From the NCBI GenBank assembly GCA_017883185.1, contig JADGOB010000008.1:1-56501 (forward strand): 56,501 nucleotides of DNA, written 5' to 3'. The position numbers and the translations under genes were made by a program. The stretch comes from Acidobacteriota bacterium (GTDB lineage: Bacteria > Acidobacteriota > Vicinamibacteria > Vicinamibacterales > Fen-181). Below the pieces are notes generated by a model. The model was not told the DNA's origin and did not search any database. It saw nothing but the letters and a program-made list of their open reading frames with translations. This document shows, piece by piece, positions 51,575 to 56,442 of this stretch. Position 1 is the stretch's first letter, and the number at the start of each line of letters is the position of its first letter.

Positions 51575-53902
51575 CTATTTCTTCTTCGTTGTCGTGCTCT
51601 TCTTCTTCGTTGTCGTGCTCTTCTTCTTCGCGGGCGGCGCGGCCTTCGTGGTGGCCGCCTTCGACCCGGACGCCGCCTTCCCCGTGGCGGTGCCGGCCGC
51701 CCCGGTACCCTCCCCGTACAAACGTCGATAGTCTTCCGCCGTCCCGATGATTTTCTTCACGTATCCCCGCGTCTCGGGGAACGGGATGTCGTCGACGAAC
51801 TCGTCGAGTTCGAGGCCCGGCCGCTCGGCGTTCCACTCGGACACGCGTGTCTCACCGGCGTTGTAGCTGGCCAGCGCGTGGTGCACGCCGCCGAAGCGGC
51901 GCACCAGGTCAGCGAAGTACGCGGTCCCCAGCTCGATGTTCACGTCGGGCCTGGTCAACGACGCGGCCGAGAAGCGCGGGATGCGCAGAACGCTCGCGTA
52001 GCGCTTGCCGGTGGACGGAAGGATCTGCATCAAGCCGATGGCGTTCGCGGACGACTTCACATCGGCGTCGAACGCGGATTCCTGGTTGATGAGCGCGGCC
52101 ACGAGATACGGGTCGAGGCCGCGAGCGGGCGCGTACTTCTTGATCAGCGCCCAGTAGTCGAGAGGAAAGATGATCTTCAGCACCTCGGTCGGCAGCCGTG
52201 CCCCTTCCTCCCCGATATAGTGCGGGTAGGCGCGCTTCATGTGGATGATCCCGCGCCGCAAGTCGCCCTGCTTGTTGTAGACCCAGCCGAGCGTCGCACT
52301 CACTACCGGGTTGTCTCCCCACGCGCGCTGCGCATACAGCAGTTCGTCGCGCGCCTGATCGTACAGCTCCAGCGACAGCAGGACGCGAATGATGCCGGCC
52401 GTCGGGAGTTGCGTCGGCGCGCTCCCCGCCTCGGCGCTGTCGCCCGCCGGCCGCGAGCTCTGACCGTCGGCATTCGACACCAGCCGCACGCCGGTGGCAT
52501 GCAGCCGCTTCGACACCAGCCGTCCGTAGTACGAGTTCAGGTAATCTGCCGCGACGATGCGATAGACCGAGGCCGCACCCTGCTGGTCGCCCAGCCGCTC
52601 GCGGGCCCGGGCGGACCAGTACAAGTATGCGGGCCGGTAGTCGGAGCGCGGAAAGGCTGCGGCCGCGCTCTCGTAGAACGTCGTCGTCTCGCCGTAGCGT
52701 CTGTGCCTGTAGGCCCACCACCCGGCCTTCCACGCCGCGCGTTCGGCGCGGGGCCCCTGCGGAAACTTCGCGTACAGCTCCCGAAAGACCGCGTCCGCCT
52801 GCTCGTCGTCGTCCGCAAGGATGTAGTGCGTGGCCAGGTTGTTCAGCGTCTCCTCGGACCATGAGCTGTCGGGAAATGCCGCGACGAGGGCCCGCGCCAG
52901 CCGGACGTACTCGTCGTGTTCTCCCAGTTCGCGGGTCGCCGTCAGATGGAAGAACTGCGCCTCGGCCTTCCGTGAGGCCCGTTCCAGGTACGGGACCAAC
53001 TGTTCGCGCGCCTGGCGGTGGCGACGCAGGTAGTAATCGCATTCGGCCAGGCGGAGTGCGATGAGCTCGGCGTCGTCGCCGCTGGCCACCCTCTGGATCT
53101 GTTCGAACGCCTGGCGCGCCGGCTGATATCGCTTGGAGCCGAACAGCCGTTCCGCGCGACCGAGGTCGAGCTTGAACCTGGCGGTCGACTCGCTGGGAGA
53201 CTTGAGATCCTTGAGACCACCGAGTTCCGTCGCGGCAACCGCCGCGAGGTCGCTGAACGGAAACTCGTAATAGAGGCGGGCGAACGCTTCGGCCGCCCGT
53301 GCCCGGTCCCCCGTCTCCTGGAGGGCCTTTCCGAGGGCCAGCAGCACGGCGTCGGGCGCCGCGGTTTTCCGGCGGGACAGCTCGTCGTCGAGCCTGGCGG
53401 CCGCCGCGTGGTCGCCTTGAGCGGACGCCGCTTCGGCCTCGCGCACGACCGCCGCTTCTGAGAGGAAGCCAGGCAGGCGGGCGGCGTGCAGCTTCGCAAA
53501 GGCAGTCCGCGCTTCCGCGGCCCGCGACAGGTTCAGAAGACAGAGTCCGCTGTAGAACGCACTGTAGGTAGCCACCGGCGTGGCCCTGAGCGCCGGGGAA
53601 CTCAACGCGGCCAAGGCCTCCGCGTATCTGGCCTGGCCGAACAGCCGCATCCCGGTGGCGAACTCCGTGGCGGCCCTCGAGGATGCGAACGACGCCGCTC
53701 GTTCCGGGACCAGCCAGATCTGAGAGGTGTCCGCCGGGAGGCGGGGCCTCGGCGGGGCCGTGAGCGCGGCGGGGACGGGACGGGGCGTGGAGCGGCCGTC
53801 GCTGGCGAGCTGGCCTTCGATGCCAGCCGACGCCCCAAACACCAACCCGACCATCACGACGACGCCGGCACGCCGGCGGACTCTTCGTTCGATCTGGATC
53901 AC
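51575..53902 (-). CDS. Soluble lytic murein transglycosylase (Slt70-like) with TPR repeats
   Basis: 775 residues from a GTG eight bases after the upstream stop. A signal peptide (RRVRRRAGVVVMVGLVFGASAG) is followed by a superhelix of TPR-type repeats (residues about 65-560) and the SLT domain: AALINQESAFDADVKSSANAIGLMQILPSTG with catalytic Glu, then NIELGTAYFADLVRRFGG and ALASYNAGETRVSEWN. It ends in KKKSTTTKKKSTTTKKK, a 21-base DNA tandem. The enzyme turns over peptidoglycan in the periplasm. It is in an operon with the GAF/coiled-coil gene upstream. Confidence 0.92.
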   Translation of the reverse strand: MIQIERRVRRRAGVVVMVGLVFGASAGIEGQLASDGRSTPRPVPAALTAPPRPRLPADTSQIWLVPERAASFASSRAATEFATGMRLFGQARYAEALAALSSPALRATPVATYSAFYSGLCLLNLSRAAEARTAFAKLHAARLPGFLSEAAVVREAEAASAQGDHAAAARLDDELSRRKTAAPDAVLLALGKALQETGDRARAAEAFARLYYEFPFSDLAAVAATELGGLKDLKSPSESTARFKLDLGRAERLFGSKRYQPARQAFEQIQRVASGDDAELIALRLAECDYYLRRHRQAREQLVPYLERASRKAEAQFFHLTATRELGEHDEYVRLARALVAAFPDSSWSEETLNNLATHYILADDDEQADAVFRELYAKFPQGPRAERAAWKAGWWAYRHRRYGETTTFYESAAAAFPRSDYRPAYLYWSARARERLGDQQGAASVYRIVAADYLNSYYGRLVSKRLHATGVRLVSNADGQSSRPAGDSAEAGSAPTQLPTAGIIRVLLSLELYDQARDELLYAQRAWGDNPVVSATLGWVYNKQGDLRRGIIHMKRAYPHYIGEEGARLPTEVLKIIFPLDYWALIKKYAPARGLDPYLVAALINQESAFDADVKSSANAIGLMQILPSTGKRYASVLRIPRFSAASLTRPDVNIELGTAYFADLVRRFGGVHHALASYNAGETRVSEWNAERPGLELDEFVDDIPFPETRGYVKKIIGTAEDYRRLYGEGTGAAGTATGKAASGSKAATTKAAPPAKKKSTTTKKKSTTTKKK
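51579..51630. repeat. 21-bp tandem repeat in the 3' end of slt
   Basis: Units TTCTTCTTCGTTGTCGTGCTC at 51579-51599 and 51600-51620, plus ten bases of a third unit. On the minus strand each unit encodes STTTKKK and gives the basic C-terminal tail. Confidence 0.9.
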
Positions 53903-53910
53903 CGTTACGT

Positions 53911-55884
53911 CTACCCCAGCGAACCCGGGTCGCCGCCGGCCAGCGTCCGAACCACTTCCTCGTCGAAGCAGTCCACCCGCCGCCTCACGGCCGCCGGGAT
54001 CTTCTCTTCGTACAGTCGGCGGGCGCGCTCGATGTCCGGCCCGAGCCGCTCGAGCAGGTTGCGCTCCTGGCGCCCGAGATCCACCGCTGTCTCGTTGTAC
54101 AACTTTATCTCCGAGATGAGCAACCGCGCGTAGCGGCGCGCCGATTCCTCCTCGCGCCTGTCGTCTGCGTAGGGCGACCCTTCGGGCGGGCGGACCGCCG
54201 GTGGCGCCTGCTCGCGTTGCACACGACCTGCCAGGATTGCCGCGTGCGACATCGTCAGCAGTTCGAGCCGATGGCCCGCGTGGCGTGCCAGGATCTCGGC
54301 AATCTCCGGCCAACTGCTCGGAACAACCGGCACCCGATCGCCGGCATCATCAGCATACAGGAGCGCGACGACCCGTCCACCCACAGAGATGGGGACGGCG
54401 AGGCCGGCCCGACCCGGCGGCGCGGCCAGTAGTCCGGCCAAGCTGTTCCCCTCGAGCCCGATCGGCGCATCGGACGTGGACACCGGGAGTCCGGTGGCGA
54501 TGGCGATGCCGAAGACGCTGCCAGCCTCGATCGGCGCGTCGATCGCCGCCGGCTCGACACCGGGCAATCCCCGCGTTTCCCAGCCTCGCAGGCGGAATCC
54601 GTTGACGACCAGCACGGCGACCCGCCCGATCTCCACGGCCGCCTGGTCGGCGAGGATGCACAGCACATCGGTCAGCGAGCGGGCTTCGTCGAGACGGCGG
54701 AAAGACGCCAGCGTGCGGTCGCTGCACGCCAGTTCCTGCTGACGGTCGGCAACGTGGACGAGCCCCAGGTTCTGCTCCGCTTCAGCCTTGGCATCCCGCG
54801 CCTGCACGACGTCAGCCCGCGCCTGTACGACGTCGGCCCGCGCCTGGTCCAGCTCCTGCTGAAGAACGGCGACGCGAGCCTCGGCCTCGTGCTTCCCATG
54901 CTCGGCCTGGGCGAGCGCGGCGGTGAGCGCGGCCCCACCCATCACCTCGGCGGCCGTCTCCCTTCGCACCGTGGCAGCCGCATCGTCGTGCTGCGTGGTC
55001 AGCTCGTTCCTCAGGGCGGTCAACGCCTCGTCGTGGCTGCGACCAAGTTCGTCCCGAACCGCCTGCAGCGCACTCTCGTGCTCGGCTGCGGCCTGCGCGC
55101 CGCGCGTCGCGAGTTCCGACTGCGCGCGGGCCGCCTCGTCACAGACCGCCTGCAGGGCGGCCTCCAGGGCCGCCTCGTGCTCGCGCGCCAACTCGTCCCG
55201 CAGGCCTGCGGCGGCCGCGTCGCGTTCCTGTTCGAGTTCCGCGCGGAGGTTCGCGAGCGCTGATTCGCGCTCCTGGTCAAGCTGCTCCCTGACGCTCGCG
55301 ATGGTGGCGTTGCGCTCCTCCGCGAGCTGCTCGCGGAGGGCGGCGGCGCCAGCGTCGTGCTCGCGTGCCAGCTCGTCACGAAGCCCCGCCACGGCCGTCT
55401 CGTGTTCAGTTGTCAATTCGGCACGGAGCCTGGCCAGGGCCGTCTCGTGTTCACTCGCACGCTCGGTGTGGAGCGCCGCCAGCGTCTCGTCGCGCTCGCG
55501 CTCGAGTGTCTCGCGCAACGCAGTCAGCTGCTCTTCGCGCTCCCGGTCGAGCTGTTGGCGCAACGCGGCCAGCGTCTCGTCGTGCTCGCGCTCCAGCTGT
55601 TCCCTGACGCTCGCCGCCGTCACCTGTTGCTCGTGATCCACCTGCTCGCGGGCCAGGGCCAGGGTCTCGGCGCGCTCCCGGTCGGCTTGCTCGCGGAAGG
55701 CGGCAAGCGCCGCCTCGTGCCCGGCGGCAGAGGTCGAGAGGGCTGATTGGACCACCTGGTCACGATCCTCCGCGGCCACTCGCATGACGTCCGAGAGGAG
55801 AACGTGCAGCGCCGACTCGAGCGGGCCACGAACTTCGTGGATGATAGTTTCGGACAGTTGCCGGATACGATCGTCGAGCGACAT
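53911..55884 (-). CDS. Coiled-coil protein with 15-residue tandem repeats and C-terminal GAF domain
   Basis: 657 residues, no signal peptide. Residues 63-242 are twelve consecutive units of exactly 15 residues with the pattern (L/V)RxxLxxExxxALAx, e.g. LRDELAREHDAGAAA and VREQLDQERESALAN; two more units follow at 276-305. A heptad-like QARADVV repeat (347-360) leads to a GAF domain at about 390-545 (RSLTDVLCILADQAAVEIG, then LAVPISVGGRVVALLYAD). The C-terminal 100 residues are helical. The GAF domain suggests a cytoplasmic sensor or scaffold. slt begins eight bases downstream. Function unknown. Confidence 0.8.
   Translation of the reverse strand: MSLDDRIRQLSETIIHEVRGPLESALHVLLSDVMRVAAEDRDQVVQSALSTSAAGHEAALAAFREQADRERAETLALAREQVDHEQQVTAASVREQLEREHDETLAALRQQLDREREEQLTALRETLERERDETLAALHTERASEHETALARLRAELTTEHETAVAGLRDELAREHDAGAAALREQLAEERNATIASVREQLDQERESALANLRAELEQERDAAAAGLRDELAREHEAALEAALQAVCDEAARAQSELATRGAQAAAEHESALQAVRDELGRSHDEALTALRNELTTQHDDAAATVRRETAAEVMGGAALTAALAQAEHGKHEAEARVAVLQQELDQARADVVQARADVVQARDAKAEAEQNLGLVHVADRQQELACSDRTLASFRRLDEARSLTDVLCILADQAAVEIGRVAVLVVNGFRLRGWETRGLPGVEPAAIDAPIEAGSVFGIAIATGLPVSTSDAPIGLEGNSLAGLLAAPPGRAGLAVPISVGGRVVALLYADDAGDRVPVVPSSWPEIAEILARHAGHRLELLTMSHAAILAGRVQREQAPPAVRPPEGSPYADDRREEESARRYARLLISEIKLYNETAVDLGRQERNLLERLGPDIERARRLYEEKIPAAVRRRVDCFDEEVVRTLAGGDPGSLG
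54800..54846. repeat. 21-bp imperfect tandem repeat in the GAF gene
   Basis: Two adjacent near-identical 21-base units (GTCAGCCCGCGCCTGTACGA and GTCGGCCCGCGCCTGGTCCA) encode two QARADVV heptads just before the GAF domain. Confidence 0.6.
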
Positions 55885-56091
55885 AAGCAGGCTCCAGTAT
55901 CAGAAGACACAAAGAGACGTCATCTGGTCCTATCGGCCGATGCGCCATGGGACTTCAAGCCTCGAGCCGGACCCTTGGCAGAAGAGTCACACAGAATCGT
56001 CCGACTCCGGTAGAATAGAAGAAGTCGGCCGGTTCTCCCGGACCGGGCCACGGTCGGATGCTGAGCGTCCGAGCGCTCCAGTTCTTTTTGT

Positions 56092-56442
56092 GGGGGCGAT
56101 TTGGCTTCGACGGGGGTATAGGGCCGTGGGAGGCATGCCGAGCCCCATCGACTCGTAAATCCGGTGGAAACAACCATAACTGCGAACACGCAGCTCGCTC
56201 TCGCTGCTTAAATAACAGCGACGTCCACCTCTTAGTTGTCTGCGCGCGGGGGCTGGATGTCAAACAGGCAGGCTGGCTGCTCGAGGTCATTCCGGGCCTT
56301 GGGCGGTGAGACGCTACCGGGAATAACGGCTGGCGGTTTTAGCCTCTTCCCCAGGCCGGCCGTGACTCAACAGAAGAGGACACGCATGTAGATTCCTGCG
56401 GTGTCGTACTCTCGGACGCGGGTTCGACTCCCGCCGCCTCCA
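56092..56442 (+). ncRNA. ssrA: tmRNA
   Basis: The 5' end GGGGGCGATTTGGCTTCGACGGGG is the tmRNA consensus, and the 3' end carries GCGGGTTCGACTCCCGC (T arm) and CGCCTCCA. Acceptor pairing is GGGGGCG with CGCCTCC, one G-U. The tag frame is GCG AAC ACG CAG CTC GCT CTC GCT GCT TAA (56182-56211), giving ANTQLALAA. CCA is not fully encoded after the discriminator. tmRNA with SmpB frees stalled ribosomes and tags the peptide for proteolysis. A TAGAAT at 56011-56016 may be its -10 box. Confidence 0.97.

Follow-up and report, generated by a model that had tools for sequence, protein, structure and literature searches.

What kind of system is formed by a long repetitive rod, a GAF domain and a neighbouring gene for a cell wall enzyme? 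The question is raised by a gene in the window (the whole 56,501-nucleotide stretch of Acidobacteriota DNA analysed here), which is present in a single copy in its genome, starts with ATG at 55884 and encodes what we refer to as the GAF-RomX rod protein (Table 1). The initial annotation of this DNA treated the rod as the heart of the system and turned to YadA-type adhesins for context. Neither view was supported: the rod is the least constrained, lineage-specific region of the protein, the phylum-wide unit is the GAF domain plus a RomX-like domain, and the proper context is the MglA/RomR polarity module. Residues 573–657, which had been left without identity, are the most informative part of the protein.

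The 15-residue rod and the GAF domain

Self-comparison of the protein bears out the array of twelve units plus two that had been annotated: residues 63–242 comprise 12 units of 15 residues, gapless and in register, with the two additional units shifted by 3 residues. Self-identity is 0.467 at a lag of 15 residues (z = 13.3, computed against 1000 shuffles) and 0.413 at a lag of 30 (z = 10.6); in the same shuffle test on the same protein, lags of 7 (z = -0.6) and 11 (z = 0.5), the periods that would have told against the initial annotation, gave no signal. Heptads and hendecads were rejected as units of the array, as lags 7, 11, 14 and 22 are all at background. The figure of 3.75 residues per turn, initially derived from the unit length, is matched by the spectrum of Leu, Val and Ile along the rod, which peaks at 3.75 residues; a strict 15-residue period is thus accompanied by the hydrophobic period of a 15-residue (pentadecad) coiled coil. 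The units follow the consensus L-R-E-Q-L-x-R-E-[RH]-x-x-[TA]-L-A-A, with Glu at position 8 invariant and Arg at position 2 nearly so. Since TRF run on the DNA sees the array just as partial 45-bp repeats, the copies are well diverged at the DNA level.

In the full-length AF2 monomer model residues 60–303 (244 residues) form one helix, which would be ~36 nm long if each residue adds 0.15 nm; after it come a second helix, the GAF domain and, at the C-terminus, a compact helical domain. Instead of a right-handed supercoil, the rod may be a stable single α-helix or a loosely pairing one that serves as a length spacer only; this alternative, which would fit the rest of our main reading, we consider unlikely. 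While the scarcity of hydrophobic positions (only 1, 5 and 13 of each 15-residue unit, position 9 being Arg or His) and the enrichment of one type of i/i+4 salt bridge (14 vs 7.2 in shuffles, s.d. 2.1) argue for a single helix, the three other salt-bridge spacings are at background, and the 3.75-residue hydrophobic stripe is strong and recurs in many relatives. A YadA-like adhesin, secreted and anchored in the outer membrane, was ruled out: the protein has no Pfam match to the YadA family at E ≤ 1, and neither a signal peptide nor an anchor is seen in its sequence. It looks soluble, as its earlier description as cytoplasmic-looking had it.

The GAF domain, too, had been correctly recognised. 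While it scores below the Pfam cut-off in the window protein (19.2 vs 22.4 bits), the fold is clear in the predicted structure, which VIA-align superimposes on 3oov_A with a Z of 18.3 and an rmsd of 2.5 over 154 aligned residues. Foldseek run on the same model yielded 182 matches at E ≤ 0.001 with GAF domains on top and filling the list (TM(target) 0.78), and L147, a relative from the same family, passes Pfam GAF_2 (29.9 vs a cut-off of 28.6).

Table 1. Features of the GAF-RomX rod gene and its neighbours (positions within the window)
Feature	Positions	Strand	Basis and remarks
GAF-RomX rod protein	53911..55884	-	657 aa; span includes stop codon; ORF list and relatives
Likely ribosome-binding site GGAG	55892..55895	-	Read directly; 8 nt before ATG
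N-terminal helix, residues 3–44	55753..55878	-	AF2 model, moderate confidence
Twelve 15-residue units, residues 63–242	55159..55698	-	Self-identity; one predicted helix
Two extra 15-residue units, residues 276–305	54970..55059	-	3 residues out of phase with main array
GAF domain, ~residues 389–558 including flanking helices	54211..54720	-	Weak Pfam score; predicted structure
RomX-like C-terminal domain, residues 578–657	53914..54153	-	Homology to PDB 8zna; pLDDT 86–95
slt, lytic transglycosylase	51575..53902	-	775 aa; GTG start 8 nt past GAF-RomX stop
SLT catalytic domain of slt	51812..52147	-	Pfam scan
ssrA (tmRNA, tag ANTQLALAA)	56092..56442	+	Divergent, upstream of GAF-RomX gene

A RomX-like C-terminal domain

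RomX controls cell polarity in Myxococcus through the Ras-like small GTPase MglA. To our knowledge, it is known from Myxococcus and has been regarded solely as an MglA regulator or effector. The last 80 residues of the window protein are the best conserved stretch among all its relatives, and none of the ten members scanned gave a convincing Pfam or NCBIfam model for this domain. When a profile of ten relatives was used in hmmsearch, a single related solved structure was found, that of Myxococcus xanthus RomX (PDB 8zna; E = 2.2e-14). The window sequence alone also matched RomX of 8zna in phmmer (E = 3.1e-6), and hhalign of the C-terminal domain against RomX gave 98.2%. Judging by these sequence comparisons, the C-terminal 80 residues are homologous to Myxococcus RomX.

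RomX-like domains also occur in other settings. The protein encoded at L104:5128-7191 (+) combines a TIR domain, a Ser/Thr kinase domain and two tandem C-terminal RomX-like domains, possibly a case of the RomX-like module on a defence or signalling protein. Two proteins without GAF, at L093:6370-7347 (+) and L103:408-1700 (-), have the domain, a membrane helix at the N-terminus and a linker that is Pro-rich or made of EEARKAEEARR repeats. No RomX-like domain was found on plasmids or viral contigs.

Distribution, selection and the missing GTPase

In an evenly drawn sample of 297 Acidobacteriota genomes, the RomX-like domain is present in 194 and MglA in 207. We regard the MglA query as sound because it is 75–80% identical to many of its matches. 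The two are strongly associated (179 genomes have both and 75 have neither, while 15 have the domain alone and 28 have MglA alone; Fisher 1.9e-31, with genomes treated as independent of shared descent), and 10 of the 15 domain-only genomes come from the window's order. Across 80 genomes of this order, the window's own included, the Acidobacteriota MglA profile detected no MglA at E ≤ 0.01 and no MglB (Robl_LC7) exceeded the cut-off; the 207 phylum genomes served as positive controls for MglA, and three control genomes did so for Roadblock. The RomX-like domain is encoded in 30 of the 80. The whole order thus appears to have lost MglA. RomR has been reported in Acidobacteriota (PMC3441718), and we found no link between RomX and Acidobacteriota in the open literature.

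Is the gene, then, a decaying relict of a lost MglA module? Such a reading would accommodate both its absence from 50 of the 80 order genomes and the freely varying length of the rod. Between the window and the near relative L009, dN/dS is 0.06 for the RomX-like domain, 0.34 for the GAF domain and 0.62 for the rod; against L146 the respective values are 0.11, 0.38 and 0.56, and residues 1–62 give 0.27–0.35. The RomX-like domain is under strong purifying selection, and these low values indicate that the protein is not decaying. Furthermore, no listed copy contains an internal stop and the core residues are near-invariant in 31 members, which makes a relict very improbable indeed.

Alternatively, the partner could be a small GTPase of MglA-like or Rup type that persists in the order in strongly diverged form, in which case the module would be an ordinary polarity module. 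Strong selection on the RomX-like domain is expected if a GTPase partner persists, and prokaryotic Rup GTPases, which are not predicted to work with MglB, do exist (PMC4316618). We nevertheless hold this to be quite improbable, as the searches of 80 order genomes were empty for both MglA and MglB and, in addition, Y611 and S621, which are conserved in MglA-bearing relatives, are changed throughout the order. None of the 31 order members has an aromatic residue at position 611, as against 52 of the 56 outside relatives, and RomX has Phe there; position 621 is Ala in all 31 members and mostly Ser elsewhere. The aromatic residue at 611 is a candidate for belonging to the GTPase interface. A strict coupling of this residue to MglA was ruled out, both by family f72 (three genomes outside the order that lack MglA yet keep the aromatic) and by the 4 of 56 outside relatives that lack it.

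The architecture of the order is distinct as well. The N-terminal part has a median length of 223 aa (up to 569) vs 100 elsewhere, and the linker between the GAF and RomX-like domains has a median of 34 aa vs 134. Several families of the order have the 15-residue period (up to 0.73 self-identity, at locus L160), and it was not found at comparable strength outside the order among the related loci compared. In two order members, L049 (residues ~220–340) and L154 (residues ~420–540), rod self-identity is seen at 8 or 11 residues, not 15, and so the repeat unit varies by lineage.

The slt neighbour and a possible role

The downstream gene, annotated from the outset as a lytic transglycosylase, is indeed one of Slt/TPR type (SLT E = 1e-25, TPR_6 8e-10), and starts 8 nt beyond the rod gene. 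Its product combines an Arg-rich n-region and a hydrophobic stretch (a signal peptide by eye) with TPR repeats and the SLT domain; NCBIfam lytic transglycosylase models match it, but under their cut-offs. The Lys/Ser/Thr tail of the product, KKKSTTTKKKSTTTKKK, is encoded by a perfect 21-bp tandem repeat (window 51579-51630, reverse strand). As judged by locus tables from which duplicates were removed, an SLT gene lies directly downstream on the same strand at 56 of 91 distinct Acidobacteriota loci, and 26 of the 30 loci from the window's order have this arrangement, so the expected conservation of the pair in relatives was found; two of the four exceptions in the order are cut by contig ends and two are from family f4. 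With four SLT genes in the genome, adjacency to the GAF-RomX gene by chance would be expected at well below 1/100 per genome.

The pairing could still be mere old synteny (ssrA – GAF-RomX – slt), due to chance or a shared promoter, with the protein serving type IV pili or another process unrelated to peptidoglycan. The presence of ssrA at the same divergent position in ~30 related loci from several classes means that the slt link is partly stable old synteny, and a neighbour fixed across classes is what a simply stable stretch would show. Moreover, no slt is visible next to the gene at 35 of the 91 loci, about two fifths of those in the phylum that encode a RomX-like domain, and the two products are predicted to reside in different compartments, Slt in the periplasm and the rod protein in the cytoplasm, so that any connection between them would be indirect. 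However, many families retain the pair with gene order and strand unchanged, with start and stop often overlapping or a few bases apart, and slt is retained at many loci where ssrA was not found. We therefore find synteny as the whole explanation rather doubtful.

Our main reading, to which we give about even credence, is that the protein is a cytoplasmic, GAF-gated, oligomeric adaptor of the RomX type that acts, probably at an envelope machine, independently of MglA. The ~36-nm helix would oligomerise via its Leu stripe and so provide both a spacer and a multivalent scaffold, in place of the long linker, rich in Pro, Glu and Ala, that MglA-bearing relatives have. The GAF domain may bind a small ligand or dimerise, and thereby control the RomX-like domain, which would now engage some other partner instead of MglA. 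As RomX joins RomR to MglA-GTP by binding the receiver domain of the former (PMC12719032), a receiver-domain protein is the first candidate. As its output, the protein could locally regulate an envelope machine, for instance the type IV pilus or the division site, with peptidoglycan being trimmed there by the co-expressed Slt.

PilT is present in the window's genome, and elsewhere in that genome (G000:C308:13703-21018) another SLT gene lies ~6 kb from pilT. In M. xanthus, MXAN_3350 may be the romX locus tag, and romX would then sit six tags from MXAN_3344. The latter is listed as an Slt-type gene, and the MltG-type lytic transglycosylase AgmT is needed to couple the gliding complexes to peptidoglycan (PMC11444678). 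Telling against our reading, the 13 lytic transglycosylases of this organism other than AgmT, Slt types included, were singly dispensable for gliding (PMC11444678). A connection between transglycosylases and motility thus has a precedent in AgmT, which, together with PilT, renders an envelope output plausible. More tentatively, RomX-like domains could form a signalling module of general use in bacteria that survived its GTPase and that, upon loss of MglA and MglB, was rewired in this order into a GAF-sensing scaffold for a cell wall enzyme or envelope machine, with no Ras-like GTPase involved.

That about two thirds of the sampled Acidobacteriota have a RomX domain, joined to a sensor and in many cases encoded beside slt, suggests an undescribed sensory input arm of the polarity module, and the frequent slt neighbour points to a possible connection of this module to the cell wall. 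The order without MglA provides a natural experiment, both for the role of the RomX domain after GTPase loss and for the residues of the GTPase interface. RomX, GAF domains and 15-residue coiled coils are each known already; what appears to be undescribed in the open literature is their combination, along with its spread in Acidobacteriota and its persistence where MglA is lacking, and there we also found no description of the GAF-RomX proteins of other Acidobacteriota.

How does the protein compare with known systems? The VASP tetramerisation domain and the YadA stalk are 15-residue right-handed coiled coils. The window's rod shares their 15-residue period and, as predicted, 3.75 residues per turn, but has Arg or His at the fourth core position; unlike YadA, the protein is not an adhesin. 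AgmT resembles the window's slt product in being a lytic transglycosylase and is associated with an MglA-directed type of gliding machine, but, unlike the Slt/TPR-type enzyme of the window, it is of MltG type and is not known to be encoded next to romX. The likeness to M. xanthus RomX extends over ~66 residues of the C-terminal domain and includes the common motif A-x-R-x-A-R-x-x-x-S-[ED]-I-x-L-Y-N-E. While RomX is a small stand-alone protein that works with MglA, the window's domain is the end of a 657-aa fusion with a GAF domain and a repeat rod, encoded beside slt in a genome where MglA and MglB were not detected. Close counterparts are the GAF-RomX proteins of other Acidobacteriota (e.g. 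L053, L072 and L013), which likewise have the GAF domain followed by the RomX-like domain, often with slt downstream. Most of them combine a short N-terminal helix with a long linker rich in Pro, Glu and Ala, and their genomes encode MglA; the opposite holds for the window's order.
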